From the NCBI GenBank assembly GCA_902774145.1, contig CACYHC010000033.1, forward strand, positions 1 through 32,758: a DNA stretch of 32,758 bases, written 5' to 3'. The translations under genes were made by a program, and so were the position numbers. The notes under the pieces were generated by a model, which was given only the letters and a program-made list of their open reading frames with translations, did not search any database and had not been told where the DNA came from. Below are positions 2,758 to 30,618 of this stretch, piece by piece. Position 1 is the stretch's first letter; every line of letters starts with the position of its first letter. The DNA is from an uncultured Bacteroidia bacterium. Lineage in GTDB: Bacteria > Bacteroidota > Bacteroidia > Bacteroidales > UBA932.

Positions 2758-5700
2758 ATGTTACACTCAAAAACTGCATTTTGGTTGCATGCTTTTGCCA
2801 TTGTCGTACTGTCCGCAGCGACAGCTGGATCCGGCACGGAAGCAATTGCCAAAGCCAACAAAAATGCCAAAGTCGTCGGGTCGGTCACCGGCACGGTTTC
2901 TGCCGGAGAGCCCATGCCCGGTCCCCTTGCAGGAGCGACCGTGATGAACGTCACCACAGGTGAAGGCGTCACCACAGACGTCGATGGCAACTACAAGATC
3001 GGAATTACCGGTCCCAAGGACATTCTCCAGTTCCGATTCCTCGGCTTCAAGGATGTCGACAAGATCGTCGGCATCGCAACGAGGATCGATGTCGAGATGG
3101 AAGACAGCTACAACACCCTCGACGATGTGATCGTCGTCGGCTACGGTACGACAAAGAAGAGAGACATCACCGGTTCGATCGTTTCCGTCTCGAAGGAAGA
3201 CATCGAATCCAAGATGCCCACGAACATCTATGATGTCCTTCAAGGAACCGCTGCAGGTGTCCAGGTCACTTCCGGTTCAGGTCAGCCCGGTGAAGGTTCA
3301 TCTGTCATCATCCGTGGCACATCTACCATGAACGACGCCGGCGTAGGCCCCCTTTGGGTCGTAGACGGCGTCCCCAGCACCGATATCGACCAGATCAATC
3401 CCTACGACATCGAGAGCATAGAAGTCCTCAAGGATGCAGCGTCTGCCGCAATCTACGGCGCCCGCTCGGCAAATGGCGTCATCCTCGTCACCACCAAGAG
3501 AGGCAACGAAAGCACTCCTGTCCTCGAGGTAAGATACCAGCACTCGATGGCGAACCTCACCCACAAGCTTCCCCAGCTGAATGCCAACGAATACCGCCAG
3601 ATGCAGAACCAGTACATGGAATATGCCCTTGGCGAGGGTGACGGCCTGGTGAGCCAGGCTGTCATCAATGTGCTCAATTCCCAGCTCGGAGATCCCTACA
3701 ATGTACTTTTGAACGCCGACAACGACTATCAGGACATCGCATACCGTCTTGCTCACAAGGACCAGGTCGACCTCAACTTCGGCGGAGCGACAAAACAGTT
3801 CAAGTATATGGTGATGGGAGGGTTCTACAACGAGCAGGGCATCATCAAGAAAACCAATTTCACTCGCGGGAACATCCGTCTGAATGCAGACTACAAGGCC
3901 AGCAAGATTCTTTCCGTCGGCACGAAAATCAACATGAGCTATGCCAAGAAAGACGGTGTGGACGAGGCCGGCTACCTGAACAGCATCCTCTCACGTAAAC
4001 CTACGCTCAGCCTCTACTACCCCGACGGGGCGCTCATCGGCACGCTCTGGGGGATCAGTCCCCTGTCTGCAAGTCTCCAGACCAACTTCAACGAGTACTA
4101 CAGGGCATCACTTTTCCAGTATATCGAGCTCAACTTCTCAGAGAAGGTGAAGTGGACGACAAACCTGAATGCCAACTTCGGCCTGGTCAGGTACACGTTC
4201 ATGCGCCCCACAGCGCTCAGTGACCAATACCGGACAAACAGCGGCCAGCACCGCAGCACGATGAGCTACGACCTGATGAACGAGAATTACATCAGCTACA
4301 ACGACACCTTCGACGGGAAACACAACCTCCAGGTTATGGCCGGCTTTTCTTTCCAATGGTGGAGAACGGCGCTTGAGTATTTCAAGGGCAAGGATTCCGC
4401 AACGGATTCAATCTACACCATGAACGCCTTCGCAGCGAACTTCGACCTCACGGCGACAGGTTCGACTGAAACGGCGCACAATATGGTCTCAGGCTTCGCC
4501 CGAGTAACATACAACTACCGATCCCGCTACATTCTTTCCGCTAATTTCCGCGCTGACGGATCATCCCGTTTCGCAAAAGACAAAAAAGTAGGATTCTTCC
4601 CTTCCGTATCGGCAGCATGGCGTATAACTGACGAGAAGTTTATGAACCCGGTGAAAAAAGCCCTCAAACTTACGGACTGGAAGATCCGCGCAAGCTACGG
4701 TGTAACCGGAAACGAGGCAATCGGCGATTACGACGCACAGCTGAGCTATGCCGTCGGAGGCATTTACGACGGCATAGCCGACAACCTCCTCGCGAATTAT
4801 GAGATTCCCAAGGAATGGGGGTTCAATACGGTCAGAAAGAATATCGGATCCATCAAGAACAATGGCTTTGAGCTGGCATTCAAGGGGACCTTCCTGAATA
4901 AGAAGCACACCTATATCCACATAGATGCCAACCTTACATACAGCCGCAACATCGTTTCCGAACTCGCAAACCACCAGAACTACATCCACAGCAACAACTG
5001 GTATATCTCCGAAGGACGGCCACTCGGCGACTTCTACGGCTACAAATACCTCGGAGTGTTCGCTTACGACGAGTCCAACGCCTTCACCGACGACTGGAAG
5101 CAACTTACGCCCGTATTCAACAGCGAAGGCCAATTCAGCCACTATACGCTTGACGGCCAGGTGTATGCCGGAACAGTCAATAAAAAGACCCTTCCCAACG
5201 GCAAGGCCTTCCGTGGTGGCGACATCAACTGGGATGAGCTGAATCCCGAGCACAGGAACGGTATCATCGATGATAAGGACCGCGGGATTCTTGGAAACGC
5301 CCAGCCCTTCCTCACCGGAGGTCTTGCCCTCACATTCCGTTTCTACCAGTTCACCCTTTCCGCATCCGGCTTCTTCTCCGTTGGCGGCAAGATTTACAAC
5401 TATGCACGCTACAATATGGACCAGAACAGTATGCAGGCGTGGTCGACGACTCCTTCAGTATACTGGAAGAACAACTTCTGGGTAAAGCAGGGAGATGTTG
5501 TGGACTATCCCAGGCCTTACCACGACAGTTGGCAGAACGACAGAAGCGTGAACTCATACTACATAGAAGACGGTTCATTTATCAAAATCAAAAATGTCCG
5601 TCTCACCTACCGTTTCAAGCAGCAGATTGTAAAGAAGATGAACATCAAGGGACTCGCTACTTACATTTATGTGACCAACCCGTTCACTTTCACTGCATAC

Positions 5701-5811
5701 AAAGGATACGATCCAGAGTTCTCTTCTTATAGCGCACTCTCGATCGGCATGGATACAAACCGGTTCCCCCGCAACAGGGAGTACGGCCTGGGTATTACCG
5801 TCAACTTCTAA
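2758..5811 (+). CDS. susC-like: SusC/RagA-type TonB-dependent outer-membrane transporter
   Basis: This outer-membrane channel imports oligosaccharides with its SusD partner, powered by TonB. The 1017-aa protein has a signal peptide (about 1-25), then a carboxypeptidase-D-like plug extension (about 40-115, with GATVMNVTTGEG and DVDGNYKIGI). A SusC signature follows with DDVIVVGYGTTKKRD, SVSKEDIESKMP and a plug domain containing IIRGTS, PLWVVDGVP and IESIEVLKDAASAAIYGARS. The rest is a long beta-barrel ending in an aromatic C-terminal strand (GLGITVNF). Length is normal for the family. The susD gene starts 12 bp downstream, and the candidate operator 2713-2747 lies immediately upstream. The glycan specificity cannot be read from the sequence; the neighbouring GH92 and GH97 suggest alpha-mannosyl/alpha-galactosyl substrates. 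Confidence 0.95.
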   Translation: MLHSKTAFWLHAFAIVVLSAATAGSGTEAIAKANKNAKVVGSVTGTVSAGEPMPGPLAGATVMNVTTGEGVTTDVDGNYKIGITGPKDILQFRFLGFKDVDKIVGIATRIDVEMEDSYNTLDDVIVVGYGTTKKRDITGSIVSVSKEDIESKMPTNIYDVLQGTAAGVQVTSGSGQPGEGSSVIIRGTSTMNDAGVGPLWVVDGVPSTDIDQINPYDIESIEVLKDAASAAIYGARSANGVILVTTKRGNESTPVLEVRYQHSMANLTHKLPQLNANEYRQMQNQYMEYALGEGDGLVSQAVINVLNSQLGDPYNVLLNADNDYQDIAYRLAHKDQVDLNFGGATKQFKYMVMGGFYNEQGIIKKTNFTRGNIRLNADYKASKILSVGTKINMSYAKKDGVDEAGYLNSILSRKPTLSLYYPDGALIGTLWGISPLSASLQTNFNEYYRASLFQYIELNFSEKVKWTTNLNANFGLVRYTFMRPTALSDQYRTNSGQHRSTMSYDLMNENYISYNDTFDGKHNLQVMAGFSFQWWRTALEYFKGKDSATDSIYTMNAFAANFDLTATGSTETAHNMVSGFARVTYNYRSRYILSANFRADGSSRFAKDKKVGFFPSVSAAWRITDEKFMNPVKKALKLTDWKIRASYGVTGNEAIGDYDAQLSYAVGGIYDGIADNLLANYEIPKEWGFNTVRKNIGSIKNNGFELAFKGTFLNKKHTYIHIDANLTYSRNIVSELANHQNYIHSNNWYISEGRPLGDFYGYKYLGVFAYDESNAFTDDWKQLTPVFNSEGQFSHYTLDGQVYAGTVNKKTLPNGKAFRGGDINWDELNPEHRNGIIDDKDRGILGNAQPFLTGGLALTFRFYQFTLSASGFFSVGGKIYNYARYNMDQNSMQAWSTTPSVYWKNNFWVKQGDVVDYPRPYHDSWQNDRSVNSYYIEDGSFIKIKNVRLTYRFKQQIVKKMNIKGLATYIYVTNPFTFTAYKGYDPEFSSYSALSIGMDTNRFPRNREYGLGITVNF

Positions 5812-5823
5812 AAGAGCTGCAAC

Positions 5824-7159
5824 ATGAAAAGCATTATCAGATATTCAACCCTAAGCCTCATTGGCATATCGTTGGCTGTGTCGTCCTGCAACATCCTGGA
5901 CTCCAATCCCATAAGCGAGATTCCGGAGAATCAGATGTGGCAGAACGAGCGCGACGTCAACGCAGGCATAGCCGAAATCTATTCCTCCTTCCGAACAGCG
6001 CTCAGGACCAACTGGTTCTGCTGGGGAGAGATGCGTTCAGACAACTTTGTACTTGCACAGGAACTTCCTTCCGAGTACTCGAATCTCATCCTGAACCAGA
6101 TGACGACCTTCGCAATCAAGCACATCCCCGATGCGAACATCACGGACCAGGCACTCAAAAGCGACTACCTCGGTCAAGCCTATGCGATGAGGGCGCTCTG
6201 CTATTTCTATGCGACCCGCGTGTGGGGCGCGGTTCCGGTATATACGGAGCCCGTCGACAATATCGCAAACGCAGTGGTGAAGGGCCGCACTGACAAGGAA
6301 GAAGTGATGCGCAACATCATACTTCCCGACCTCGAACGGGCCCTCGAACTCATCAACCCCGCCAATGTAGAGCGCAAGCGTATCAGCCGCAATGCAATCT
6401 ATGCCATCATGGCTGACGTACAGATGTGGCTGGGAGAGTGGGAAGCCGCCGATGCCACCATCGACCTTTTCATGGCTGCGAACGGCAGCCCCAGTGCTGC
6501 CACCTCAAACTCAAAGGTAAAATTCCAGAAAGACATCGTCGAACTAAAGAATACCTTTGTCTTCCCTCATCTGGAGCATCCTCGGATGCGGCATGGGCCA
6601 GGGAGCGACAGTCGTCCTCTCTCCAAAGCTCCAGGCAATCTATGAGGCGGGAATTGCGAAAGCTCCTGTAGACAAGAGGTTCGAACAGTATCTTTGCCCC
6701 AACAGAAGCAGCGCAGAGACTTATCAAGTCCATAAATATATGGCAAACGGAACGGCGGTCAAATACCAGGACTACATCAACTGCCAGGTGGCATATCCCA
6801 TCTACCGATACACCGATGTCCTGCTCATGCAGGCAGAGGTGAAGGCCCAGCTCTCCAAGTGGCAGGACGCCCTCAATCTCATCCAGTTTGTGGCAGAGCG
6901 TGCAGGCGTCGCTTCAAAGCTCCCTCCGGTAAGCGCCTTCGCTTCCACAGACGAGCTCATCGACTTCATCCTGGACCAGAAACAGATAGAGCAGGTAGGC
7001 GAAGGCAAGAGGTGGTTCGACCTTGTAAAATATCACAAAGCCGTCGAGGTCATGAACCCTATCAACGGCCTGAGCAGCCAGGACGAAGAACTCTTCCCCA
7101 TCCATCAGAGCGTACTCAACCTCTGTCAGGGCGCATACGAGCAGAACAAGGGTTATTAA
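5824..7159 (+). pseudogene. susD-like: SusD/RagB-like glycan-binding lipoprotein, interrupted by a frameshift
   Basis: This is the SusD partner of the preceding SusC: a surface lipoprotein lid that captures glycan. Frame 1 begins with a lipoprotein signal (lipobox AVSSC, Cys22), includes the SusD-typical YLGQAYAMRALCYFYATRVWG, and stops at 6645. The rest (PIYRYTDVLLMQAEV, then EQVGEGKRWFDLVKYHK) continues in frame 2 to 7159. The two frames join well near the CCC at 6564-6566: dropping one C gives NTFVFLIWSIL and a 444-aa protein. That is either a real 1-base insertion or a sequencing/assembly error. A tryptophan-rich helix usually found before the IPDANIT segment seems to be missing (QMTT runs straight into FAIKHIPD), so the protein is also short for the family. 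A downstream fragment could only start at an internal ATG and would lack a signal peptide. Confidence 0.85.
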
Positions 7160-7174
7160 TATTTCTGCAAAGCA

Positions 7175-7825
7175 ATGAAAATGAAAAGATTTATATTCGG
7201 CTCCATGGCAGCTTTCGTTCTTTTGGCCATGACCTCCTGCGAAGGATTCAAGCTCCAGACGGACTACCACTACACCAGCCAGCCTCTTGATCCTCACGTG
7301 AACATGACGGCCTGGGAGTATATGCAGTCGCGCGCCGACCTCAGTGAAATGGTCGATGCGGTGAAATACGCAGAAATGGAAGATTACTACAGCCAGACGG
7401 AGAATGTCGTGACATACCTCTTCATCAACAATGACGGTATGGCAAACTTCCGCGAGAGTCATGCTCAAGTGCAGAAAATCGAATATTGCGACAAGGAGCA
7501 GGTACAAAGGCTTCTCCTGTACCACATGGTACTCGGAGAATACCACTCGATGAACAAGAAGCTCCCCGTCGAACCTATCTATGTGAAGACATTCCTTGAA
7601 GGAGAGTGGGGGTTGATGACCATCAAGGTCAACAAATCTTCTTCCAATTCCATCGGATCCCCGATCGCCAACGGGAACATTGTCTGCAACGAGACTTCCA
7701 GCAATTTCAGGTCAAAGAGAATCAGTTCTGTGACTTCGAACATCCTCCCCACCAACGGAGTAATCCACATCTTCAACGACTACTCGATGTTCCGCAAGAC
7801 CAGCACAGACGTCACACCTTATTAA
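7175..7825 (+). CDS. Fasciclin (FAS1)-like lipoprotein
   Basis: A 216-aa predicted surface or periplasmic lipoprotein: signal peptide with lipobox AMTSC, Cys22. The body fits a single FAS1 fold. Expected elements are an early helical stretch (MTAWEYMQSRADLSEMVDAV), a TYLFINNDGMANF strand in place of the usual TVFAPTDDAF, the H1-like LLLYHMVLGEY, and a C-terminal NGVIHIFNDYSMF matching the H2 NGVIHVID motif. FAS1 domains mediate adhesion or ligand binding, and Bacteroidota PULs often carry such lipoproteins beside SusCD, where a role in glycan capture is presumed. It starts 15 bp after the susD stop and ends two bases before the next gene, so it is in the operon. The function within the PUL is inferred. 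Confidence 0.7.
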   Translation: MKMKRFIFGSMAAFVLLAMTSCEGFKLQTDYHYTSQPLDPHVNMTAWEYMQSRADLSEMVDAVKYAEMEDYYSQTENVVTYLFINNDGMANFRESHAQVQKIEYCDKEQVQRLLLYHMVLGEYHSMNKKLPVEPIYVKTFLEGEWGLMTIKVNKSSSNSIGSPIANGNIVCNETSSNFRSKRISSVTSNILPTNGVIHIFNDYSMFRKTSTDVTPY

Positions 7826-9500: not shown

Positions 9501-12500
9501 ATGAAGAAATTTTTGACCTGTCTGCCAGCGCTCATGCTGTCATTCTCCGCACTTGCGGAGGAGGTCGTCTATGATGTTGTCATATACGGAGGCAATTCCT
9601 CCGGTGTCATTGCCGCTTACAGCGCTGCCAAAACCAAGCTGAAAGTTGCTCTCATCGAGCAGACGCGGCACATCGGAGGACTTACCACAAGCGGAATCGG
9701 CCATATAGACATTGGCTGGCCTCAAACAGTGGGCGGTTACACGCGCGAATTCCTTCGCCGTGCAGGAAAACATTACGGCAAGGCAGATGCCATCGCCACC
9801 GACATAGAATGCAGCGTTGGCGAAACGGTCTTCAAGGAAATGCTTGAGGAGACGGATGTCGATGTATTCTATCAGACCAGGCTCCGGCAAAAGGATGGGG
9901 TCAGGAAAGACGGAACCACAATCACAGGTATCGTAATGGAGGACGGCCGTGAATTCAAGGCCCGGACCTTTATCGACGCCAGCTACGAAGGAGATCTGAT
10001 GGCCCAGGCCGGAGTTACCTACATCGTTGGGCGCGAACCCGCCGACTTGTACGGAGAGTCGGCCGCCGGCGTCCAGTCGTACAAGACACTCACGGTACTG
10101 AACCGCGGACAACTCGATACGGTGCTCATGCTCCGACGCCGCTTCCCCATGGATGTCGTTCCCGGTGAAAAGCAGGCCAAGGGTGCAGGAGACGGCAGAA
10201 GCCAGGCTTATGTATACAGGCTTTGCGTAACGGACAACCCCGACAACAGGGTTGCATTCCCCAAACCGGCCAACTATGTACCCGAACGTTATCTCCTCAA
10301 GTTGAGAAGAATTCAGAGACTCAACCTTACGAAGTTCAAGCAGGTTCTGACGCTGTACCCTCTCCCCAACCACAAGTATGACCTGAACCATATGGATCTG
10401 CTCAACGCCTCGTGGAACTACCCTGAAGGTGATTATGCCACCAGAAAGATGATTGACGAGTACCACAGGGCGTACCAGCAGGGCTATCTCTATTTTCTGG
10501 CGAACGATCCCCGCGTTCCCGCAGCGCTTCAAGAAGATGTGCGCCGTTACGGTCTGGCAAAAGACGAATTCGCGGACAACGAGAACTGGCCTTATCAGCT
10601 CTATATACGTGAGGGCAGGAGGATGGTCGGAGAGTATGTCATGAAACAGTTCGATGCCTGGGACAGGCCTCACAAAGACGATGCCGTGGCCATCGGGTCC
10701 TATTTTCTCGATTGCCACCTCGTGTCGTCCATCCTCACGGGGGAAGGAAGGATAGAAGAGGAAGGCGTGTTCGAAAATACACCTTACCGTCCCTATCAGA
10801 TTCCTTACCGAAGCATTGTCCCCAGAAAGGATCAGTGTACGAATCTGTTCGTCACCTCATGCATATCGGCTTCCCATGTCATTTATGCATCTTTGCGCAT
10901 GGAACCGGTATATATGATGCTCGGTCAAGCTGCAGCGGCGGCTTCCTCGCTCGCCATCGGGAAGGGAACCACCGTCCAGAACGTCAATATAGAGGAACTT
11001 CAGGCCCTGCTTAAACAGCATGGCCAGATCATCAGCTATGATCCGCCTGCAAACATGTATCTGAGACAGCAGGATTACGATGGAATCGTCCTCGACGACA
11101 CCAACGCCACTCTCGTAGGAAATTGGGGGCACTCCGTAGCTCAGGGACCCTTCATGAAGGTCGACTATGTATTCGCGCATGCCAATAAAAATGGAACGGC
11201 GACGGCAACCTATAATCCTTTCATTGAAGAGAAGGGGAGCTACGAGGTATTCGTGATGTACGCAGCCGGCGGAAACCGGTGCGGAAGCGTGCCGGTGACC
11301 GTCATCGACAGGAAAGGATCGCATACGGTCTATATCAACCAGAAGACAGCGCCTTCAGATGGGGAATGGGAGAGCCTGGGCATCTTTGAGTTCGCTCCCG
11401 ACAAGGAACACAAGGTGATAATCAGTAACCGAAGCGAGAGCCCGGGGGTAGTCATTGCCGACGGGGTAAGGGTCGTAAGGAAAGAAACGGCAGGGAAGAA
11501 AGCCGTGAACCCCAAAACGAAAGTCGCTCCGATAGTTGCAGTCAAGGTCCCCGCCGGCGAGAAACAGAGCGGTCTCTTCCGCGCCGAGGCTCTTGGCGTA
11601 AAGCTGCCCGTATATGAACTCAAAGTCTCCCCTGTCGACAGGAAGGACCGGCTCAAGGGAATGGATGACAAGAAGAACACGCATCAGTTCTATGAGATGG
11701 CCGCTTTCACCTATTTCGATATCCAGGGAAAGACCACCGTCAAGGTAAGTTCAGACAGCGGCATCAAGAGTGTGAAGGTTCTCCCCTCTTCTTACGGCAT
11801 CAAGGCAGAGATCAGGGACGGCGCGGCGTTCGTCGATGTGCTGCCGGGGCAGAATCTTACCGTGGAGATAAACGGAGACGAATACCATTCGCTCCACATT
11901 TTTGCCAATAAAATGGAGACGGAGAAAGTTGACAGAAGTAATCCGAATGTCATCTACTTCGGTCCCGGAGTCCATAAAATCGGCCGTCTGGTCGTTCGCG
12001 ACAACCAGACCCTCTATGTTGCAGCCGGGGCGGTTCTCATGTGCGACACATCCGACAAGCCCGACGGAGGGCCTTACCTTCCAAGCATCACCCTTGCCGG
12101 CAAGAACATCAGAGTTTGCGGACGTGGTATCATCGACGGTTCGCTCTGCCCCAATCTCGGAAGGAACCTGATGTGCGTGGAAAAATGCGGAAATGTCACC
12201 ATAGAGGGTGTAATTCTCAGGGACAGCGGCGTATGGACACTCCCCGTAAGGCATAGCGAGAATGTTACCATAGACAACGTCAAGATACTCGGATACAGGG
12301 CAAACTCCGACGGAATTGACATTTGCAACAGCAGAACAGTTCTTGTCCAGAACTGTTTTATCCGCACGCTGGATGACCTGATCGTCCTCAAGACGCTTCT
12401 GAACGGCGGCGAGTGCCGCGACGTCACCGTACGCAAGAATGTACTTTGGAACGAGGTTGCGCATGCCCTCAGCATAGGTGCGGAAATCAACCATGACATC

Positions 12501-12884
12501 AGCAACGTTGTCTTTGAGGATTGCGATGTTATCCACGACAAGGGGCGCGAATGGAGCCTCAGGGTTTATCATTGCGACAACGCCCTCGTCAAAAATGTCC
12601 TTTTCAGGAATATAAGGATAGAGGAAAGCCAGAGTTTCATATCGCTTTGGATCAACAAGGCGGTATGGAGTTCCGGGAACGGCCGCGGCCATATCGATGG
12701 CGTTTCGTTCAAGGACATCACCGCCTCCAGGATAAGCAACCCTGTGATAGAGATTCTCGGCTATGACGGGGACCATAAAGTAGAGAACGTTTCATTCTCC
12801 AACATCAAGGTGGAAGGAAAGAGTGCGGGCGACGAGATGCTGCGCACAAATGAATTCACAGACAAAATAGGCAAACTGCGATGA
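9501..12884 (+). CDS. Fusion: exported FAD-dependent oxidoreductase, golvesin-like domain, GH28-like beta-helix
   Basis: This 1127-aa fusion has a signal peptide (about 1-19, ALA cleavage). A PF12831-type FAD oxidoreductase follows, with Rossmann GGNSSG at 30-35, RHIGGLTTSGIG and FIDASYEGD. A golvesin/xanthan-lyase-like beta domain (about 530-660) begins GIVLDDTNATLVGNW. A dextranase-like sandwich (YFGPGVHKIG, YVAAGAVL) leads into a right-handed beta-helix (about 790-1127). The helix has GH28-like acids: N935-S-D937, D958-D959, H988 and R1021. D937 to D958 (21) and H988 to R1021 (33) match the spacing in Aspergillus polygalacturonase II (D180/D201, H223/R256). The RIK lysine is a tyrosine and the GHG glycines are alanines, so the substrate probably is not polygalacturonate. 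The ATG at 9501 gives the signal peptide; an upstream start at 9393 does not. Its last codon and stop overlap the GH97 ATG (ATGA). Confidence 0.8.
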   Translation: MKKFLTCLPALMLSFSALAEEVVYDVVIYGGNSSGVIAAYSAAKTKLKVALIEQTRHIGGLTTSGIGHIDIGWPQTVGGYTREFLRRAGKHYGKADAIATDIECSVGETVFKEMLEETDVDVFYQTRLRQKDGVRKDGTTITGIVMEDGREFKARTFIDASYEGDLMAQAGVTYIVGREPADLYGESAAGVQSYKTLTVLNRGQLDTVLMLRRRFPMDVVPGEKQAKGAGDGRSQAYVYRLCVTDNPDNRVAFPKPANYVPERYLLKLRRIQRLNLTKFKQVLTLYPLPNHKYDLNHMDLLNASWNYPEGDYATRKMIDEYHRAYQQGYLYFLANDPRVPAALQEDVRRYGLAKDEFADNENWPYQLYIREGRRMVGEYVMKQFDAWDRPHKDDAVAIGSYFLDCHLVSSILTGEGRIEEEGVFENTPYRPYQIPYRSIVPRKDQCTNLFVTSCISASHVIYASLRMEPVYMMLGQAAAAASSLAIGKGTTVQNVNIEELQALLKQHGQIISYDPPANMYLRQQDYDGIVLDDTNATLVGNWGHSVAQGPFMKVDYVFAHANKNGTATATYNPFIEEKGSYEVFVMYAAGGNRCGSVPVTVIDRKGSHTVYINQKTAPSDGEWESLGIFEFAPDKEHKVIISNRSESPGVVIADGVRVVRKETAGKKAVNPKTKVAPIVAVKVPAGEKQSGLFRAEALGVKLPVYELKVSPVDRKDRLKGMDDKKNTHQFYEMAAFTYFDIQGKTTVKVSSDSGIKSVKVLPSSYGIKAEIRDGAAFVDVLPGQNLTVEINGDEYHSLHIFANKMETEKVDRSNPNVIYFGPGVHKIGRLVVRDNQTLYVAAGAVLMCDTSDKPDGGPYLPSITLAGKNIRVCGRGIIDGSLCPNLGRNLMCVEKCGNVTIEGVILRDSGVWTLPVRHSENVTIDNVKILGYRANSDGIDICNSRTVLVQNCFIRTLDDLIVLKTLLNGGECRDVTVRKNVLWNEVAHALSIGAEINHDISNVVFEDCDVIHDKGREWSLRVYHCDNALVKNVLFRNIRIEESQSFISLWINKAVWSSGNGRGHIDGVSFKDITASRISNPVIEILGYDGDHKVENVSFSNIKVEGKSAGDEMLRTNEFTDKIGKLR

Positions 12885-14881
12885 GAAGATTGTTGATTAT
12901 ACTTGGCGCAGCCCTTCTGGCCCTTCCCGTTCAGGCCAGAGACTATATTCTTAGCTCGCCCGACGGCAAGCTGAACGTCACTGTACAGACAGAACCTGTC
13001 CTTGCATACACGCTCTGTCATGAGGGCGAAATCCTGATCGCGCCTTCTGCAATCTCCATGGAAACGGACCAGGGCGTCTGGGGCGGGAAAATGAAAGTCA
13101 AGAAGTTCCGGAAAAGCAGTGTGAACACTACTTTTGAGACGCCACTCTACAAAAGGGCTCAGGAGACCGACATCTACAACGAGATGGTCCTCGAGAGTAC
13201 TGGATATAAAGTGGTCATGCGCCTCTATGACGAAGGCTTTGCGTACCGTTTCGTTGCAACCGGGAAGAGTGACGTCATTGTGAATTCCGAAAAGGCGGAT
13301 TTCAATTTTGCCGGGGACCACATGGCCTGGGTGCCGTATGTAAGGAAGATGGGAGATTTCAACCAGCAGTTCTTCAACACTTTCGAGAACACCTATGTGC
13401 ACGACAACATCAGCAAATGGGAAAGCGGTCGCCTTGCGTTCCTTCCCCTGATGGTGGAGTATGCATCCGGAAAGAAAATCTGCATCAGTGAATCCGATCT
13501 CAACCATTATCCCGGAATGTACCTGTACAATCCCGACGGAGGGACTTCCCTAGAGGCGGTTTTCGCCCCCTATCCCAAAAAAGAACGTCAGGGCAGCCAT
13601 GATCCGTCTGTCACCATCGGCGGCCATAACAAGGTCGTCGTAGAGAGGGAATCCTATATCGCAAAGTGCGACAAGGGTCAGGCCTTTCCCTGGAGAGTCG
13701 TATGCGTTGCGACAGAAGATGTCCAGCTCCTCGACAACAACCTTGTCTACAAGCTTGCAAGTCCCAGTGTCATCAAGGATCCTTCATGGATCAAACCTGG
13801 ACTCGTCGCCTGGGAATGGTGGAACGACCGGAACATCATTGGAGTGGACTTTGAAGCAGGGGTAAACAATGAGACCTACGAATACTACATCGACTTTGCA
13901 GCTGAAAACGGTATTCCTTATGTCGTTCTCGACGATGGCTGGTATGATGCAAAGGCAGGCAGCGCTTTCGCGGTCGTACCGGAGATTGACCTCAAGCGGC
14001 TCGTCAAATATGCCGGCGAGAGGAATGTAGGTCTTATGCTCTGGGTAGGATACTATGTATTCGACAAGGACATGGAAAAGATCATCGGCGACTACGCCCG
14101 AATGGGAATCAAGGGCTTCAAGCTCGATGCGATCGGACGCGACGACCAGAAGCTCAACGAGTTCTACTATAAAGCGGCCGACATTGCACTCAGGAACAAG
14201 GTCATTCTCGATTTCCACGGCGGAGCAAAGCCTGCCGGGCTCAACAGGACCTACCCCAATGTCCTGAACTTTGAAGGCGTACACGGCCTTGAGCAGTTGA
14301 AAAACAAATCGTACGACTGCGACCTCGTTTCATACGACCTCCAATTCCCCTTCATCCGCAGCGTAGCAGGCCCTGCCGACTACACCCAAGGTGCGATGAA
14401 GAACGGAACCAGGGCAAGCTACCGTTCAATCTGGTCTGAGCCCATGAGCCAGGGAACCCGTTGCCGCCAGCTCGCGGAATACATCGTATTCGACTCCCCC
14501 CTCAACATGCTTTGCGACAGCCCGAGCAACTACATCCGGGAGCAGGAATGCACCGATTTCATCACTTCCCTCCCCACCGTGTGGAAAGAGACGAAAGCGA
14601 TAGATGGAAAGATAGGCGAGTACATAACGATGGCCCGCAAAGATGAAGAAGGCAACTGGTATATGGCCGGCCTTGCTTCCTGGGAAGGAAGAACCGCAGA
14701 ATTCGACCTCTCATTCCTGGACAAGGGCAACTACAAGGCGCTTATTTTCCGCGATGGCGTAAATGCCGGGAGAAACGGCAACGACTACAAACGCGTCGAG
14801 AAGACCGTTCACTCCAGCGAAAAACTCGAAATCGTGATGGCGCCCGGTGGTGGTTTCGCAGTCAAATTATCCAAACTATAA
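12881..14881 (+). CDS. GH97 glycoside hydrolase, retaining (alpha-galactosidase-like) type
   Basis: An exo-acting alpha-glycosidase, predicted periplasmic from its signal peptide (about 1-19, cleavage after VQA). The 666-aa protein has the GH97 order: N-terminal beta-sandwich (about 20-285), a TIM barrel (GIPYVVLDDGWYD, LMLWVGYYVF, GIKGFKLDAIGRDDQ) and a C-terminal beta-domain. D416 in FKLD and E465/E471 in FEGVHGLE correspond, one residue offset, to the nucleophile D415 and E464/E470 of the retaining BtGH97b alpha-galactosidase. The inverting SusB type has glycine at the aspartate position. This mapping uses recalled literature positions. The ATG overlaps the previous stop by four bases (ATGA), implying translational coupling. 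Several positions around the acid/base are unusual: FEGVHGLE where REGVRGQE-like sequence is common. Confidence 0.9.
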   Translation: MRRLLIILGAALLALPVQARDYILSSPDGKLNVTVQTEPVLAYTLCHEGEILIAPSAISMETDQGVWGGKMKVKKFRKSSVNTTFETPLYKRAQETDIYNEMVLESTGYKVVMRLYDEGFAYRFVATGKSDVIVNSEKADFNFAGDHMAWVPYVRKMGDFNQQFFNTFENTYVHDNISKWESGRLAFLPLMVEYASGKKICISESDLNHYPGMYLYNPDGGTSLEAVFAPYPKKERQGSHDPSVTIGGHNKVVVERESYIAKCDKGQAFPWRVVCVATEDVQLLDNNLVYKLASPSVIKDPSWIKPGLVAWEWWNDRNIIGVDFEAGVNNETYEYYIDFAAENGIPYVVLDDGWYDAKAGSAFAVVPEIDLKRLVKYAGERNVGLMLWVGYYVFDKDMEKIIGDYARMGIKGFKLDAIGRDDQKLNEFYYKAADIALRNKVILDFHGGAKPAGLNRTYPNVLNFEGVHGLEQLKNKSYDCDLVSYDLQFPFIRSVAGPADYTQGAMKNGTRASYRSIWSEPMSQGTRCRQLAEYIVFDSPLNMLCDSPSNYIREQECTDFITSLPTVWKETKAIDGKIGEYITMARKDEEGNWYMAGLASWEGRTAEFDLSFLDKGNYKALIFRDGVNAGRNGNDYKRVEKTVHSSEKLEIVMAPGGGFAVKLSKL

Positions 14882-14887
14882 AGAATC

Positions 14888-15868
14888 ATGAAGTTTTTCA
14901 GGTCAATATTCAGCATCGCCCTGCTTTTTGCGGCGATCGCGCCAGCCTCGTCGCAGAGGATTATAAACAGGTACAGCCTTGACCTCGTGAAAATCAAGGA
15001 CGGCTACCGTCTTCAGGATGAGAGCAAGATCCGCAGGTACCAGTTGTTCGATATCGACAACGCGCCCGCAGACATGTTCGTACCCTTCGAGCGCAAGCGT
15101 CTTTTTATCAAGGATGACGACTATCACCAGGCCGAGACCAAGGTGGTCGTATTCAAGCAATACCCCGGATATGATCTCAAAATGGCCATCGACCTTCCAA
15201 AGGAAAGGACAGGCGAGAAACTTCCTTTCATCATCTGGATCCATGGCGGAGGCTGGCATATGGGCGACTTCAACGGCCATAGCCTCCATTCCCGCTACCT
15301 GGCCGGCAACGGCATTGCCGGCGTGAGGATTTCCTACTCTCTGCTCACCCAGGATGCAACATTCGAAGACAGCTGGTCCGACATCCAGGATGCTGTGAAA
15401 TATATCCGTGAGCATGCAGAAGAATATGGGCTGGATCCCTCACGCTTCGGCTTTGCAGGCCACTCTGCCGGCGGCCACCTCGCCGCTTATGCTGCGATGA
15501 GAACCCCGGGAACCAAGCTTCTTGTGGCTTTCAACGGAATCTACGATCTCGTCCACACGGTAAATGAGTTTGTACCCTCCAGCCGTCACGACAAATATTT
15601 CGGACTTTCCTCACTCGAATCCCGCAAGAATGCATCTCCGGTTACGTTCGTTCATCCGGACGCTCCCTACTGCCTTCTTACCTACAGTTCAGGAGATGTG
15701 CTCGTTGACAAGGCACAGGTTGTAACCTTCACCCAAGCCCTCCGCGAGAACAATGTCAAATACGACCTTCTCTACAAAGACTACTATTCACACATGGGAT
15801 TCATCGACACCGACCTGCTGGAACCCACACTCATGCGCGTACTCATCGAAGCGAAAAAAAGACTCTGA
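14888..15868 (+). CDS. Secreted alpha/beta-hydrolase, carbohydrate esterase-like
   Basis: Probably removes acetyl or other acyl groups from a glycan. The 326-aa protein has a signal peptide (about 1-22, SSQ). Its alpha/beta-hydrolase fold shows the oxyanion loop WIHGGGW, the nucleophile elbow FAGHSAGGH (Ser193), the acid in SSGDVLVD and the histidine in YYSHMGF. This matches the BD-FAE/Axe-type esterase families found in PULs, and the length is typical. It starts six bases after the GH97 stop and ends three bases before the next ATG. The pairing with glycosidases suggests deacylation before cleavage; a peptidase of the same fold is less likely because the His-Gly-Gly-Gly-Trp motif favours esterases. 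Confidence 0.85.
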   Translation: MKFFRSIFSIALLFAAIAPASSQRIINRYSLDLVKIKDGYRLQDESKIRRYQLFDIDNAPADMFVPFERKRLFIKDDDYHQAETKVVVFKQYPGYDLKMAIDLPKERTGEKLPFIIWIHGGGWHMGDFNGHSLHSRYLAGNGIAGVRISYSLLTQDATFEDSWSDIQDAVKYIREHAEEYGLDPSRFGFAGHSAGGHLAAYAAMRTPGTKLLVAFNGIYDLVHTVNEFVPSSRHDKYFGLSSLESRKNASPVTFVHPDAPYCLLTYSSGDVLVDKAQVVTFTQALRENNVKYDLLYKDYYSHMGFIDTDLLEPTLMRVLIEAKKRL

Positions 15869-15871
15869 AGA

Positions 15872-17773
15872 ATGATCAGGAGGATTCTATCGACACTTGT
15901 GGCAGTTGTTGCCTGCATTCAGGTCTGCGCCGCATCCGGCTACGACCTCGTTGTGGTTGGCGGTACGCCCGGCGGAATCATGACCGCCATCTCTGCGGCA
16001 AGGGAGGGATGCAATGTACTTATCCTGGAGCGTACGAACCACATCGGGGGCCTTCCCGCCAACGGACTTGGCGCTACGGATATAACGACCAGAGGGGCGA
16101 CTACAGGACTGTTCCTGGAGTTTACCGAGAGGAACTACCAGCACTATCTCAGAACCTATGGGCCCGATTCCAGGCAGGTCAAGGATTGCAGCGGCGGTTA
16201 CCATTTCGAACCTTCGGTGGCCGAACAGACCCTTCTGCAGATGATCGGTGCGTATTCGGACAAAATCACGGTTCTGCTTGGCAGGCAGTTCGATTCCGAC
16301 CCTGCAAATGTAAGCATGAATGGACGCAAGGTCGAATCCATCAGAGTGGTGGAAAGGACAAGCGGCAAGGTCGAAGAGTATTCGGCTGCAATCTTCATTG
16401 ACGCGACCTATGAAGGAGACCTCGGTGCGGCAGCCGGTATCCCCTATCGCATCGGAAGGGAAGGCAGGAGCGAATTCGGCGAGCCCTGCGCGGGAAAGAT
16501 ATACCGCCACTGGGGAGTCCAGTTCGACAAAGGTGAAAAACAGGTCCACAACGGTTATGAAGGATATGAAAGCGACGGCACCACCTATCAGGGCGACAAT
16601 GCCGTCCAGGCATACAACTACCGCTTGTGCCTCACCACAGACAAGACGCAGCAGAAACCTGTCGTGAAACCTGCCGGATACAATCGCGACGAATATGCAT
16701 CCATCGTAGAAGATGTCTGGACCGGCCGCAATACAGGGATAGACATGGAAAGCGTGACTGCCGAAATGATGGAAGCGAACAGGGAAGCTTTGAAGAAAGG
16801 CGGAAAGACCCGGATACCCGGGGACCCCTGGGGAATGGCCAAGGTAACAAACATGGTTCCCCTCCCCAACGGCAAGACAGATGCGAACAACCAGCACATG
16901 GCATTCGTGTCCACCGACCTGCCCGAAGAGAACTGGGCATGGCCCACTGCCTCCTGGGAGTGGAGGGACAAGTTTGCGCAGAGGCTCAAGGACTACACGC
17001 TCGGCCTTCTCTGGTTTGTTCAAAACGACAAGCAACTCCCCGAACAGTTCAGGAAGGAGTGTCAGCGCTGGGGTCTTTCATCTACTGAATACGTAGACAA
17101 CGACAACTTCCCCCGTCAGGTTTACGTACGCGAGGGACGCAGGCTCGAGGGGACCTGTCTTTTCACCGCAAACGACGCTATTCCGGTGACATACGACCAG
17201 CGCCCTCCCATACACGGGACCAGCATTACCGCGAGCCACTACGCACTCGATTCTCACGCCGCCCTCAAGCGGGAGGAGGGCAAGGTCCATCTCGACGGAT
17301 TTTTCGGATACGAGAGCAAGCCCTATACCGTTCCCCTCGGCGTGATGATCCCTAAGCAGATATCCAACCTTATCTTCCCCGTCCCTGTGTCCGGAACCCA
17401 TATCGGATTCTCCACAATGAGGATGGAGCCCTGCTGGATGGCGCTTGGCGAGGCTGCCGGCATTGCCGCGGCACAAGCCGTCAAGAAGAGGCTCGAGGTT
17501 CAGTACCTTGACACGGAGGATATCCAGAAGATTCTTGTCGGGCACAAGGCGACACTCATCTATTACTATGACATCGACAGCACATCAGCAGAATGGGAAA
17601 TGGTACAGATGATGGGGGTAAAGGGATATCTCCCCGGGTGGAAAGCCGATCTCGATTCGGCAGCCACGGCCGAAGACCTGTCCGGTTGGAGAAGGCTCTC
17701 CGGGATCGACATCCCCGGGGGAATGAAGACAAGAAGGGAAATTCTCACATATATTTATTCAAGAATCAGATAA
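15872..17773 (+). CDS. Exported FAD-dependent oxidoreductase (PF12831 type), stand-alone
   Basis: A 633-aa paralogue of the oxidoreductase part of the 9501-12884 fusion. The signal peptide (about 1-21) is followed by a Rossmann FAD motif VVVGGTPGG (30-35), ERTNHIGGLPANGLG, and the family blocks FIDATYEGDLGAAAG, VYVREGRRLEGT and MRMEPCWMALGEAAG. It ends with a helical tail (WEMVQMMGVKGYLPGWKAD) and lacks the golvesin and beta-helix modules. The family is mostly annotated only as FAD-dependent oxidoreductase; the electron acceptor and substrate are unknown. Signal peptide and operon position suggest periplasmic oxidation of a sugar or aglycone. No covalent-FAD histidine/cysteine signature or obvious partner redox protein was seen. 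It starts three bases after the esterase stop and ends four bases before GH92. Confidence 0.8.
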   Translation: MIRRILSTLVAVVACIQVCAASGYDLVVVGGTPGGIMTAISAAREGCNVLILERTNHIGGLPANGLGATDITTRGATTGLFLEFTERNYQHYLRTYGPDSRQVKDCSGGYHFEPSVAEQTLLQMIGAYSDKITVLLGRQFDSDPANVSMNGRKVESIRVVERTSGKVEEYSAAIFIDATYEGDLGAAAGIPYRIGREGRSEFGEPCAGKIYRHWGVQFDKGEKQVHNGYEGYESDGTTYQGDNAVQAYNYRLCLTTDKTQQKPVVKPAGYNRDEYASIVEDVWTGRNTGIDMESVTAEMMEANREALKKGGKTRIPGDPWGMAKVTNMVPLPNGKTDANNQHMAFVSTDLPEENWAWPTASWEWRDKFAQRLKDYTLGLLWFVQNDKQLPEQFRKECQRWGLSSTEYVDNDNFPRQVYVREGRRLEGTCLFTANDAIPVTYDQRPPIHGTSITASHYALDSHAALKREEGKVHLDGFFGYESKPYTVPLGVMIPKQISNLIFPVPVSGTHIGFSTMRMEPCWMALGEAAGIAAAQAVKKRLEVQYLDTEDIQKILVGHKATLIYYYDIDSTSAEWEMVQMMGVKGYLPGWKADLDSAATAEDLSGWRRLSGIDIPGGMKTRREILTYIYSRIR

Positions 17774-17777
17774 ACTG

Positions 17778-20012
17778 ATGAAAAAGCACATAACCATACT
17801 CGCATTCCTGACCCTGTCTGTCGTCTGTGGAATCCTGCTGGCACAGTGTTGGGTGAAGAAGGATACAAAACCTGTCGATTATGTCGATACGACCATTGGA
17901 GGCATCAGCCATCTCCTTGTACCGACATTCCCCACGACCCAGCTGCCGTGCAGCATGCTGCGCGTTTTCCCCGTCCGCCGGGATCTCACTTCCGAGTATG
18001 TGAACGGACTCCCCATCGCAGTCACCAACCACAGGGAGCAGTCCGCCCTCAAGCTCCTGCCTCTCAAGGGAGAAACGGTGTCGTTGCCGGTGCAATACAA
18101 TTTTGATCACGAAACAATCACGCCGTACGATTTCAGTGTTGAACTTGCAGACAATACGATCTCCGTATACTATGCCCTGTCCCATCAGAGCGCAATCTAC
18201 GAGATTGATTTCAAGGATGCGGATAAACCCTGCATTGCGCTCTGCACGGACGACGGTACGCTGAACTACGATGACCACAGCATCTTTGGTTATCAGCAGC
18301 TTCCGGGAGACACCAGGGTATATGTCTATCTAGAGAGCGAGGCCGGCCCTGAATCCGTATCTGGTTTCCCTTCCAAATCTTCCACCGACTGCATACTGAT
18401 GTCTTTTTCATCCGGGCGGAAGACAATACGCCTCCGCTACGGCATTTCCCTGATAAGTTGCAAGCAGGCAGAAAAAAACCTTCGCCGAGAGATCGGCAGC
18501 TATGACGCAAGGTCTCTTGCCCAGGAAGGAAGAAAAGCCTGGAATGATGTCCTTGGAAGAATCATAGTGGAGGGTCTGGATGAGCAGGAAAAAGTAAAAT
18601 TCTACTCTTCCTACTACAGAACCTTCGAAAGACCGGTCTGCATAAGCGAGGACGGACATTACTACAGCGCCTATGACCATGCTGTCCATGAAGACAACGG
18701 TCAGCCGTTTTACGTAGATGACTGGCTCTGGGACACCTATAGGGCGGCACACCCTCTTCGCAGCCTTACAGACACTACGATGCAGGAGGACATACTTGCC
18801 TCCTTCTTAAGGATGGCCCGGCAGAAGGGCGACAATTGGATGCCGACCTTCCCTGAGGCAAATGGCGACACTCGAAGGATGAACAGCAACCACGGCGTGT
18901 CGGTTGTCGCTGAAGCGCAAGCGCTTGGCATCAAGGCAGATTACAATGCGCTGTATGAAATCTGTGCTAAAGGAATCGACGAGAAGACGCTCGCCCCCTG
19001 GTCGTCAAAGCCCGCCGGCTGGATAGACGGATTCTATAAGCAGAACGGTTACATCCCCGCACTACGCCCCGGTGAAGCGGAAGAAGACCCCAATGTCGAT
19101 TCTTTCGAGAAACGCCAGCCCGTGGCGGTCACGCTGGGAACAGCCTACGATCAGTGGTGTCTGCACCGGATTGCCAAGAATCTTGGCCTGAAGGATGAAA
19201 CCGGGTTCAGAGGTTCCAGAGCCTTGGATTATAGGAATCTTTTCAACCCTGAAACGCTTTTCTTCCACCCGAAGGACAAGGATGGAGCATTCATCGAGCC
19301 CATAGATTACAGTTTCTGCGGTGGACTCGGGGCCAGAGAGTATTACGGAGAGAATAATGGCTGGGTATACCGATGGGATGTACAGCACAACATAGCCGAC
19401 CTCGTGGACCTGATGGGGGGAAGAGACAAGTTCTGCGAGGAGTTGGACAGGACCTTCGGCACCCCTATCTCCAGGAGCAAGTTCGCTTTCTATGCCATGT
19501 TGCCTGACCATACGGGGAATGTCGGACAGTTTTCGATGGCCAACGAGCCCTCGCTCCATATTCCCTACCTCTACAATTACGCAGGGAAGCCGTGGAAGAC
19601 GCAGAAGCGCATTCGCCAGATGCTTGACACCTGGTTCAGAACCGATCCCATGGGCATCCCCGGAGATGAAGACGGCGGCGCCATGACCTCGTTCGTAGTA
19701 TTCAGCATGATGGGATTCTACCCTGTTACACCCGGCACTGCGACATACAACATCGGCTCTCCGGTATTTGAAAAGGTAAGCCTCCGCCTTGCGAACGGCA
19801 ATACATTCAAGATTATGGCGGATGGTTCCAGCAAGGAAAACAAATACATCCAGACTGCAGAACTCAACGGAAAAATCTGGGACAAGCCTTGGTTCAGCTA
19901 TGATGACATCAAGGATGGCGCAGTCCTGAAGCTAAAGATGGGACCCGAACCCAATAAAGAATGGGGCACGGACATAAGCTGCGCCCCTCCCTCGGCAGAG
20001 ATTCCCATGTAA
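17778..20012 (+). CDS. GH92 exo-alpha-mannosidase family protein (divergent N-terminus)
   Basis: The GH92 family removes terminal alpha-mannose by a calcium-dependent inverting mechanism. The 744-aa protein has a hydrophobic N-terminus (about 1-22) with a weak lipobox (LLAQC, Gln before Cys), so export is clear but lipidation is not. Family blocks are WDTYRAAHPLRS, ENNGWVYRWDVQHN, MANEPSLHIPYLYNYAGKPW and a GFYPV segment after GDEDGG. E525 (ENNGW) is the predicted acid; D630 and D632 (GDEDGG) match the base pair of BT3990 (E533, D642, D644, recalled). The N-terminal domain departs from the usual DPxIGT...GxTxPGA start (DTTIGGISHLLVPTFPTTQLP) and may change the substrate pocket. It ends one base before the stop of the opposing operon. 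Confidence 0.88.
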   Translation: MKKHITILAFLTLSVVCGILLAQCWVKKDTKPVDYVDTTIGGISHLLVPTFPTTQLPCSMLRVFPVRRDLTSEYVNGLPIAVTNHREQSALKLLPLKGETVSLPVQYNFDHETITPYDFSVELADNTISVYYALSHQSAIYEIDFKDADKPCIALCTDDGTLNYDDHSIFGYQQLPGDTRVYVYLESEAGPESVSGFPSKSSTDCILMSFSSGRKTIRLRYGISLISCKQAEKNLRREIGSYDARSLAQEGRKAWNDVLGRIIVEGLDEQEKVKFYSSYYRTFERPVCISEDGHYYSAYDHAVHEDNGQPFYVDDWLWDTYRAAHPLRSLTDTTMQEDILASFLRMARQKGDNWMPTFPEANGDTRRMNSNHGVSVVAEAQALGIKADYNALYEICAKGIDEKTLAPWSSKPAGWIDGFYKQNGYIPALRPGEAEEDPNVDSFEKRQPVAVTLGTAYDQWCLHRIAKNLGLKDETGFRGSRALDYRNLFNPETLFFHPKDKDGAFIEPIDYSFCGGLGAREYYGENNGWVYRWDVQHNIADLVDLMGGRDKFCEELDRTFGTPISRSKFAFYAMLPDHTGNVGQFSMANEPSLHIPYLYNYAGKPWKTQKRIRQMLDTWFRTDPMGIPGDEDGGAMTSFVVFSMMGFYPVTPGTATYNIGSPVFEKVSLRLANGNTFKIMADGSSKENKYIQTAELNGKIWDKPWFSYDDIKDGAVLKLKMGPEPNKEWGTDISCAPPSAEIPM

Positions 20013-24435: not shown

Positions 24436-24440
24436 GGAAA

Positions 24441-28286: not shown

Positions 28287-28429
28287 TATAACCATTCCAG
28301 TTCATCATCTTCTACGAAAGATTCAATAGATGATGCAGTACTTTGGCTTGCGCATATCACGGAAATTTCAGGCAAGCTGATAAACGTTGTTTTAGGAGCG
28401 TGATACTCCATTCTGAGAATTTTGTTCAT
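28286..28429 (-). CDS. 47-aa small protein between GH92 and the fimbrillin gene
   Basis: This short frame starts with an ATG sharing one base with the GH92 stop (TAATG, 28431-28427) and ends at TAA 28288-28286, just before the strong ribosome-binding site. The product has an N-terminal basic part (MNKILRMEYHAPKTTF), a central ISVICASQS and a very acidic end (VEDDELEWL). This layout, with a Pro near residue 12, a single Cys-Ala-Ser and an acidic tail, resembles short uncharacterised proteins seen next to surface-protein operons in Bacteroidales. There is no signal peptide. The coupling to GH92 and tight packing support it being real; the function is unknown. Confidence 0.6.
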   Translation of the reverse strand: MNKILRMEYHAPKTTFISLPEISVICASQSTASSIESFVEDDELEWL

Positions 28430-30618
28430 TATTTATTAGAAATTTTGGGTTGATTTGTCATTTCGAACTCCAGAATGCCTCCGGAAACGATATCCTCGTG
28501 TGAAATCCTGAATCCGTCAAGCGTTCTTCCATTGAGCCTTGCGCTTGCAACATACCTGTTCTCATCGCTGAGGTTCCTGGCCTTGACAGTAAAGTCTTTA
28601 CCGCCGGGAAGATGGAGAGTCATCCGGGGAATCTGGGGTGCACCTATTATATATTGACCGCTCACAGGGTCCACAGGGTAAAAGCCCATTGCAGAGAAAA
28701 GATACCATGCACTCATCTGGCCGCAGTCATCGTTTCCGCAAAGTCCGTCAGGAAGAGGTCGATAGAAGCGGTCGAACACTTCCCTGATGATGGATTCGGT
28801 CTTCCAGGGCCTGCCTGCAAACTGATAGAGATATGCGACATGATGGCTGGGCTCGTTTCCATGGGCATACTGACCGATGAGTCCGGTCACATCTCCTACG
28901 AAGCCGGCATTGTTCTCACTCACCGTATCAAGGAAGAACAGAGAGTCGAGTTTTGTTTCAAAGTCGTCTTCTCCGCCCATCAGTTCGATGAGTTTTTCAG
29001 GATTCTGCTGCACATGCCAGGTGTACTGCCATGCATTGCCTTCCGTGTAATCTCCTCCGTGGGTCGCTGCATGCGAGAGCTGGAAACGGTCAAATGGAGT
29101 TCTCCACTCCCCTTTCGAATCCTTTCCTCTCACGAGTTTTGACTCGGGATCAAAGAGATTGAGCCAGTTCTCAGACCTTTTGCGGAAGAATTCAGCATCT
29201 TCGGCATGGCCAAGGGCATCGGCAAAAACGGAAGCGCAGTAATCATCGTAGCACATTTCCATGGTGCGGGACACTGACTCCCTTTCTACGATGTCATAAG
29301 GATAGTATCCATAATTGTCAAGGATATCAAACTGCGACGAGCGCATATGATTGGTGGTAAGGCTGCCCTTGACCGCCTGATAGGCATGCTCCGCGTCAAA
29401 TCCACGGAATCCTTTCATGTAGGCTTCCACAACCGTGGGGACGGCATGGTTGCCGATCATGCAGAACGTCTCCTGTCCCCAAAGACTCCAGATGGGGAGG
29501 AAGCCCTGGACATCATACTGTTCAAGCATGCTCTGCACAAAATCATCCACCATCTCCGGGTTGAGAATGGTATATAAAGGATTGGCGGCGCGGTAAGTAT
29601 CCCAAAGGGAGAATGTAGAGAAGAATTTACCATTTTTTGACTGGCGCACTTCCCTCCTGGCATCGCGGTATCTGCCATCCACATCGGAGATGTCGTTGGG
29701 TTGGATATAGAGGTGATACAACGAAGTGTACACATTCTTTTTCTGCTCCACGGAGCCCTCCACTTCAACCCTCGAGAGAAGCTCGCGCCACTGATCCGCA
29801 GCAGCTTTGCGCACATCCCGGAAGTTCCATCCGGGGAGTTCAGCTTCAAGGGCGGCATTGGCGCCCTCCGTGCTGACCGTGGACATGGCAACCTTGACGG
29901 ACAGGGGCCTGTCGGATTCGGCAAATTCCAGTATCACCTTGTCGGCCTTTTCCTGACCTGCGGGTTCGAGCTTGACACGGCTGAGGCAGGGTTCTGAAAA
30001 CCGTACCGTGAAGTACCACTCCCTTGTTGTCCAGTTCCTGGTCACAAGACGTCCGGAGATGGTCTGATTATCCGGATACGCGATTTCTGCGTCGAGAACA
30101 TGGGTCAGAAGGTTGGCAGGACCGTTCACCATACCATTCTGGAAATCCACGTAAAGCTTCCGCGATGCGGAATCCGGATACCTTATATTATAAATGGCCA
30201 CACGCCGGGTTGCCGTCGATTCCACCGAAATGCCGTTGCAGAAATCGACGCTGCAGTAACCGGGCGTTGCATACAGGGACTCCTTCACATAAGGATTGTC
30301 ACGGAGCAGCGTGTCACCGGTGAAAGGCAACAGGAGGATGTCTCCAAGATCGGAGCATCCGGTACCGTTAAGATGGTTCTGGGAAAAACCGATGAGGGTG
30401 CTGTCGGCAATATTGAAGCCGGAAGTATATTTCCAGCTACTGTTGCCGGAATCGGGGCCGGGCTGCACGAAACCGAAGGGCACGCAGGCTGCGGGGAAAG
30501 TATGTCCATTGTCAGCTGTTCCGACGAGAGGATCAGCGTACTGGAGTACATCTTCGGCGCAGGAGGCGGAGAGCAGCAAAGCAATCGCCGGTGCAGCGTA
30601 TGCCAGAAGTTTACGCAT
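28429..30618 (-). CDS. GH92 exo-alpha-mannosidase family lipoprotein
   Basis: A 729-aa canonical GH92 with lipobox SASC (Cys20), so likely anchored to a membrane. The ATG at 30618 is chosen because it shares a base with the previous stop (TAATG) and gives the SPII signal; the longer upstream frame does not. Blocks: YADPLVGTADNGHTFPAACVP, SQNHLNGTGCSD, WDTYRAANPLY, EGNAWQYTWHVQQN (acid E526), HGNEPSHHVAYLYQFAGRPW and GNDDCGQMSAWYLFSAMGFYPV (base D631; N629 where the other GH92 has D630). The family hydrolyses terminal alpha-mannosides with calcium. It differs from the plus-strand GH92 in the N-terminal domain and in this base region, so the two probably cut different linkages of the same glycan. 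Confidence 0.92.
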   Translation of the reverse strand: MRKLLAYAAPAIALLLSASCAEDVLQYADPLVGTADNGHTFPAACVPFGFVQPGPDSGNSSWKYTSGFNIADSTLIGFSQNHLNGTGCSDLGDILLLPFTGDTLLRDNPYVKESLYATPGYCSVDFCNGISVESTATRRVAIYNIRYPDSASRKLYVDFQNGMVNGPANLLTHVLDAEIAYPDNQTISGRLVTRNWTTREWYFTVRFSEPCLSRVKLEPAGQEKADKVILEFAESDRPLSVKVAMSTVSTEGANAALEAELPGWNFRDVRKAAADQWRELLSRVEVEGSVEQKKNVYTSLYHLYIQPNDISDVDGRYRDARREVRQSKNGKFFSTFSLWDTYRAANPLYTILNPEMVDDFVQSMLEQYDVQGFLPIWSLWGQETFCMIGNHAVPTVVEAYMKGFRGFDAEHAYQAVKGSLTTNHMRSSQFDILDNYGYYPYDIVERESVSRTMEMCYDDYCASVFADALGHAEDAEFFRKRSENWLNLFDPESKLVRGKDSKGEWRTPFDRFQLSHAATHGGDYTEGNAWQYTWHVQQNPEKLIELMGGEDDFETKLDSLFFLDTVSENNAGFVGDVTGLIGQYAHGNEPSHHVAYLYQFAGRPWKTESIIREVFDRFYRPLPDGLCGNDDCGQMSAWYLFSAMGFYPVDPVSGQYIIGAPQIPRMTLHLPGGKDFTVKARNLSDENRYVASARLNGRTLDGFRISHEDIVSGGILEFEMTNQPKISNK

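Follow-up and report, generated by a model that had tools for sequence, protein, structure and literature searches.

A flavin oxidoreductase and a clan GH-N hydrolase joined in one exported protein of an uncultured Bacteroidales bacterium

Fusions of lytic polysaccharide monooxygenases (LPMOs) to glycoside hydrolases (GHs) are known as multicatalytic carbohydrate-active enzymes (CAZymes). A second example is CE15-GH8 (PMC8417218), and PMC10628242 treats the oxidation of glycosides followed by elimination. Here, we analyze a stretch of 32,758 nucleotides, hereafter, the window (contig CACYHC010000033.1, assembly GCA_902774145.1), from an uncultured Bacteroidales bacterium of lineage UBA932, in which one gene joins a flavin oxidoreductase domain (FAD_oxidored, PF12831), a golvesin-like domain and a clan GH-N hydrolase. 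A search of the openly licensed literature found no paper on fusions of this kind and no function for PF12831 in glycan breakdown, its name or accession appearing only in a listing of the Brucella flavoproteome; a search of PMC4071793 gave nothing on FAD enzymes. This agrees with the original prediction, made from the DNA letters alone, that no characterized enzyme is known to have this domain order. PF12831 flavoenzymes are common in glycan loci.

The fused gene reads from an ATG at 9501 to a stop at 12884, a translation of 1127 residues without an internal stop; an alternative TTG start 108 bases upstream would give 1163 aa. The ATG opens a stretch that by eye resembles a signal peptide and is shared with a fused relative (see below), which supports the predicted export. 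Pfam recovered FAD_oxidored across its full profile (1–416; E 1.1e-96, 325.2 bits against a cut-off of 27), including the dinucleotide-binding FAD core, as well as Golvesin_C (E 4.9e-25, 88.6 bits against 31.6) and Glyco_hydro_28 at residues 889–1108 (E 9.1e-16; 58.3 bits for the whole protein, 60.9 for its C-terminal half, cut-off 22.9). The open frame and these three matches, from a domain search proposed with the original prediction as a check, bear out its single 1127-aa chain and its domain order. An AlphaFold2 model of the whole chain, built on an 84-row alignment, has a mean pLDDT (predicted local distance difference test) of 91.8 and a pTM (predicted template modeling score) of 0.64, with low-confidence linkers at residues 517–521, 544–555 and 664–673; in the model the single domains are confident and their mutual arrangement is not.

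Six peptide patterns, which find close relatives and miss distant ones, were used to scan the genomes of 84,980 species and returned 41 loci, only one of which (L010, contig C22 of genome G041) spans residues 1–1123, the others matching one half. This second fused protein belongs to another species of the genus and is roughly 70% identical; its frame of 1112 aa is free of internal stops and sits in the same operon. Phylum- and order-wide searches (393 and 395 genomes) gave no further full-length match, only those in G000 and, in the 393-genome set, G041. The count of homologues, likewise suggested beforehand, thus stands at one further species with the same fusion, alongside eight genomes of the genus that carry the halves, both at high similarity, as two adjacent genes (G358, G244, G209, G430, G364, G913, G873, G894; five from a 300-genome and three from an overlapping 400-genome draw, with the G364 flavin gene truncated by a contig end). 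The first gene of these split relatives always stops at TGA. In seven genomes this codon is overlapped by a possible start of the second gene (five with ATG, two with either GTG or ATG), and in G913 the start follows it directly. By eye, the second gene begins with its own signal-like stretch; both fused proteins lack it and have a linker after the golvesin domain instead. The fused pair forms a clade in the flavin tree (support 97/96) and in the hydrolase tree (94/91), and in one genome (G919) the hydrolase homologue stands on its own. In alignment A2, distant flavoenzyme rows were cut to about 520 residues, since uncut golvesin domains misaligned onto the hydrolase half, and many cut rows retain a stray tail of about 20–25 residues.

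In GH28 enzymes, the NxD and DD motifs have catalytic roles, and GHG and RIK are marks of polygalacturonases. An alignment of the C-terminal half (40 rows including the window, short row L047 left out) shows N935, D937, D958, D959, K964 and E995 conserved in every row; the NxD/DD residues align with the same residues of GH28 structures, and the three catalytic aspartates by which GH28 is recognized are present throughout (40/40). H988 and R1021 are kept in 35 of the 40, the exceptions being a planctomycete (L040) and Clostridia (L041–L044). The residues singled out originally (D937, D958-D959, H988, R1021) lie where they were placed, and the reported replacement of the GHG glycines and of the polygalacturonate-binding lysine is correct: GHG reads A987-H988-A989 (AHA), and RIK reads RVY, with Y1023 for the lysine. 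Because GHG and RIK are replaced, we call this half 'clan GH-N, GH28-like' rather than a polygalacturonase, and the motif changes together with an extra beta-sandwich rule out a plain GH28 polygalacturonase. That sandwich, preceding the helix in the layout of GH49, had been missed, whereas the predicted GH28-like beta-helix with its clan GH-N acids holds. The Glyco_hydro_28 profile matches 44/44 hydrolase-family members of alignment A3 at E 0.01; Glyco_hydro_49 (PF03718) matches only six of the 44 relatives, weakly (best 1.6e-4), and does not match the window protein at E 0.01, so that GH49 membership is not assigned. NCBIfam GH28 equivalogs leave the window protein far below cut-off. The hydrolase half, therefore, has the two-domain shape of GH49, yet its best sequence score is with GH28. 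Taken at the sequence level, the fused gene is one frame with both folds and both sets of conserved residues, and comparison with the split relatives indicates the loss of a stop and a second signal.

The flavin half offers fewer comparisons. Structure-based matches fall on the FAD core only, most rows covering 170–290 of 520 residues, and this core resembles very different flavoenzymes (fumarate reductase, HI0933, Thi4); the remainder, barely covered by structure matches, may also have counterparts among known families.

PF12831 has other partners in the genus. Long PF12831 frames were collected from searches of the genus and from a survey of 30 genomes hand-picked for many matches to the profile (at E 1e-40, as many as 16 in a single genome). 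At least 21 survey rows had 840 aa or more; four were set aside, G483 and G402 were left out of the scan, and of the 15 distinct proteins that were domain-scanned 13 carry another domain (Table 1), none being found in L166 (728 aa) and L171 (841 aa). On our own reading, a G240 frame listed as 1071 aa resolves into two separate ones (539 and 531 aa), and the G231 site has no single frame over 800 aa. The GH3 fusion of G368 has a split counterpart in G177, where flavin and GH3 genes are adjacent with coding ends overlapping by one base; in the tree, the flavin genes of these two genomes are sisters (100/99). Placed on a tree built from 39 flavin domains, fusion requires eight changes of state, seven of them forced by well-supported branches; these may be gains or losses, the partners differ, and L170 and L171 sit on very long branches that may be wrongly joined. 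Fused proteins cluster on this tree more than when the label is shuffled (3/500 as low). Of 119 genomes drawn evenly across the order, 21 have PF12831 matches at E 1e-60.

Neighborhood, clean fusion and recurrence with other glycosidases make a functional link between flavin oxidation and glycan cleavage well supported. We rank as most likely, at a probability of about 0.5, that the product would be bifunctional, with both activities directed at one glycan. An exported PF12831-golvesin flavoenzyme gene and an exported clan GH-N hydrolase gene, neighbors in a polysaccharide utilization locus (PUL), would have become one gene in one lineage, its product residing in the cell envelope. In such an enzyme the flavin part may oxidize a sugar hydroxyl, of an oligosaccharide or of a released unit, the beta-helix, acting with inversion as in clan GH-N, may hydrolyze an alpha-glycosidic bond in the same glycan, and the golvesin domain may serve as spacer or binding module. 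The recurrent fusions to unrelated glycosidases suggest that pairing of PF12831 with glycosidases is general in the genus. A wider proposal, that the genus holds a class of 'oxido-glycosidases' in which PF12831 is joined repeatedly to unrelated hydrolases, oxidation preparing or completing cleavage of the same bond, and in which the window protein would be the clan GH-N member, we regard as doubtful. The fusions name likely partners, and the question of the PF12831 substrate therefore becomes testable with the bifunctional proteins, the split pairs serving as natural controls.

Several observations weigh against the bifunctional reading or its generality. A profile test on the 39 loci of L010–L050 that hold the hydrolase family found a PF12831 frame in the flanks of only two of 38 unfused cases (L021 and L036, 5–6 kb away), so that PF12831 is not a general partner of this hydrolase family; PF12831 genes stand unpartnered in many loci. 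Not every fusion partner is a glycosidase (FGE-sulfatase, DUF4886 and a beta-lactamase-family domain also occur). Among the 38 matches listed from the even draw of the order, only the window's reached an 800-aa frame; within this sampling, such fusions therefore seem to be a tendency of this one genus. Finally, no close relative of the flavin region beyond the FAD core turned up among the structures searched, so that structure points to no particular flavoenzyme substrate. The original prediction of oxidation and cleavage in one chain is thus partly supported: as a pairing it is strengthened by the split neighbors and the other glycosidase fusions, and it loses weight because PF12831 seldom lies near unfused hydrolases and because some partners are not glycosidases. 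The channeling that it suggested, with oxidation or cleavage as the first step, is a possibility only. Those hydrolases have varied neighbors (GH29, GH43, GH95, GH30, sulfatases, GH39, DUF6250, apiosidase-like, 3-keto-disaccharide hydrolase), which consequently name no substrate. In a single case (G711) a gene of the 3-keto-disaccharide hydrolase family (L120:7925-8806) precedes an unfused GH28/49-like gene at a distance of 30 bases, a hint of oxidized-sugar chemistry. Separately, in another family of the order (L095 and L102; G743 and G811), a PF12831-golvesin gene is followed by a homologue (58–60%) of the window's second flavoenzyme.

The main rival, possible though less probable, is that fusion fixes stoichiometry and location only, the two parts serving the same locus on different compounds with uncoupled reactions. 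The adjacent unfused halves in one operon of eight relatives are consistent with this, as are the GH-N part's usual lack of a nearby PF12831 gene and the pTM of 0.64, with no firm contact between the parts in the model. Against it, the genus contains PF12831 fusions to several unrelated carbohydrate modules, and the fused state shows at least seven forced changes, above the expectation for neutral accident, yet operon neighbors also fuse by chance. It is unlikely that the flavin part acts instead on a non-sugar group (an aglycone, phenolic ester, lipid or oxidized side group) that the hydrolase frees or follows: esterase and second PF12831 genes in the same operon would fit, as would the likeness of the FAD core to the diverse flavoenzymes named above, but in this genus PF12831 is joined mostly to modules that cleave sugars. 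That the beta-helix only binds or supports, without hydrolysis, might be read from the replaced GHG and RIK residues; the invariance of N935 and the three aspartates, matched to their GH28-structure counterparts, makes this highly improbable. An assembly or sequencing error joining two genes, conceivable in this contig because its neighboring SusD gene is in two frames, is ruled out by the roughly 70% identical fusion of the second species, where, as in the window, a linker replaces the second signal peptide rather than a stop merely being lost.

The fused protein is encoded within an operon (Table 1) whose order in the split relatives, read where flanking sequence sufficed, is SusC, SusD, fasciclin, lipoprotein-like, flavin, hydrolase, small protein, GH97, esterase, second PF12831 and GH92. 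The window keeps this order except for the small protein and the operon-ending GH92, which lie on the opposite strand at 28429-31211. Homologues of the small protein have no Pfam match, and G041 has no match to it at E 0.001. SusD is one frame of 491 aa in L010 and of 499 aa in L138, and the split in the window is a frameshift, real or an error. GH97 scores 713 bits with the alpha-galactosidase 3a24 against 181 bits for the next kind, and both GH92 proteins are closest to solved GH92 entries of the alpha-mannosidase type. A reasonable guess at the target, though no more than that, is an alpha-linked glycan containing mannose and galactose; the two GH92 genes weakly hint at mannan. Between the two operons, the minus strand (21331-28256) encodes two large proteins of LRR/BspA type; one has a CotH domain, the other a GDSL-like domain.

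Table 1. Features of the window, and domains joined to PF12831 elsewhere in the genus (L, locus; G, genome).
Feature	Location	Strand	Remarks
SusC-type transporter	2758..5811	+	
SusD-type gene	5824..7159	+	two overlapping frames (5824-6645, 6557-7159); single frames in L010, L138
Fasciclin-domain protein	7175..7825	+	
Fused gene	9501..12884	+	1127 aa; signal-like start, FAD_oxidored, Golvesin_C, linker, beta-sandwich, GH28/GH49-like beta-helix
FAD_oxidored (PF12831)	9573..11012	+	residues 25-504; Pfam
Golvesin_C (PF25275)	11094..11480	+	residues 532-660; Pfam; xanthan lyase 6f2p C-terminus
Linker	11481..11549	+	residues 661-683; at site of split relatives' stop, second start and signal peptide
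Beta-sandwich	11550..11948	+	about residues 684-816; aligned with GH49 structures
Right-handed beta-helix	11949..12869	+	about residues 817-1123; clan GH-N acids D937, D958-D959
Codon of D937	12309-12311	+	clan GH-N acid
Codons of D958-D959	12372-12377	+	clan GH-N acids
GH97	12881..14881	+	nearest retaining alpha-galactosidase 3a24
BD-FAE type esterase	14888..15868	+	
Second FAD_oxidored protein	15872..17773	+	
GH92	17778..20012	+	
GH92	28429..30651	-	counterpart of operon-ending GH92 in split relatives
Small exported protein	30618..31211	-	197 aa; homologue between GH28/49-like gene and GH97 in split relatives examined
GH3 + golvesin	L157, G368		
SASA esterase + GH2	L158, G296		
GHL10 with DUF4985	L170, G296		
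GH130	L172, G041		
Melibiase	L177, G041		barely over cut-off
GH29	L174, G240; L176, G129; L178, G215		
DUF4886	L159, G454; L163, G422		
FGE-sulfatase	L173, G460; L175, G289		
Beta-lactamase-family domain	L160:2315-4777, G182		N-terminal; from a related genome

Each part of the protein has known counterparts. Proteins of PF12831 plus golvesin, separate genes in many Bacteroidota genomes and with no characterized member found, correspond to the N-terminal two thirds of the window protein; unlike it, they end after the golvesin domain. The xanthan lyase 6f2p carries a golvesin-like C-terminal domain matching the window's own, on a polysaccharide lyase that lacks a flavin part. The two-domain fold of the hydrolase half is that of GH49 isopullulanase and dextranases (3wwg, 1wmr, 6nzs, 1ogm), from which the window protein differs at 18–20% identity and in falling outside PF03718. 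The best sequence matches, by family profile, are the GH28 galacturonidase 5olp (4e-30) and exopolygalacturonase 3jur (2.9e-28), in matches that leave out the beta-sandwich; NxD and DD are kept, whereas GHG and RIK are replaced. Oxidation-then-elimination of glycosides shares the idea of a sugar oxidized and then cleaved, but employs other enzyme families, and the second part of the window protein has the residues of a hydrolase. The multicatalytic CAZymes (CE15-GH8, LPMO-GH) resemble the window protein in placing two activities for glycan degradation in one exported chain, and differ from it in having no PF12831 flavin part.
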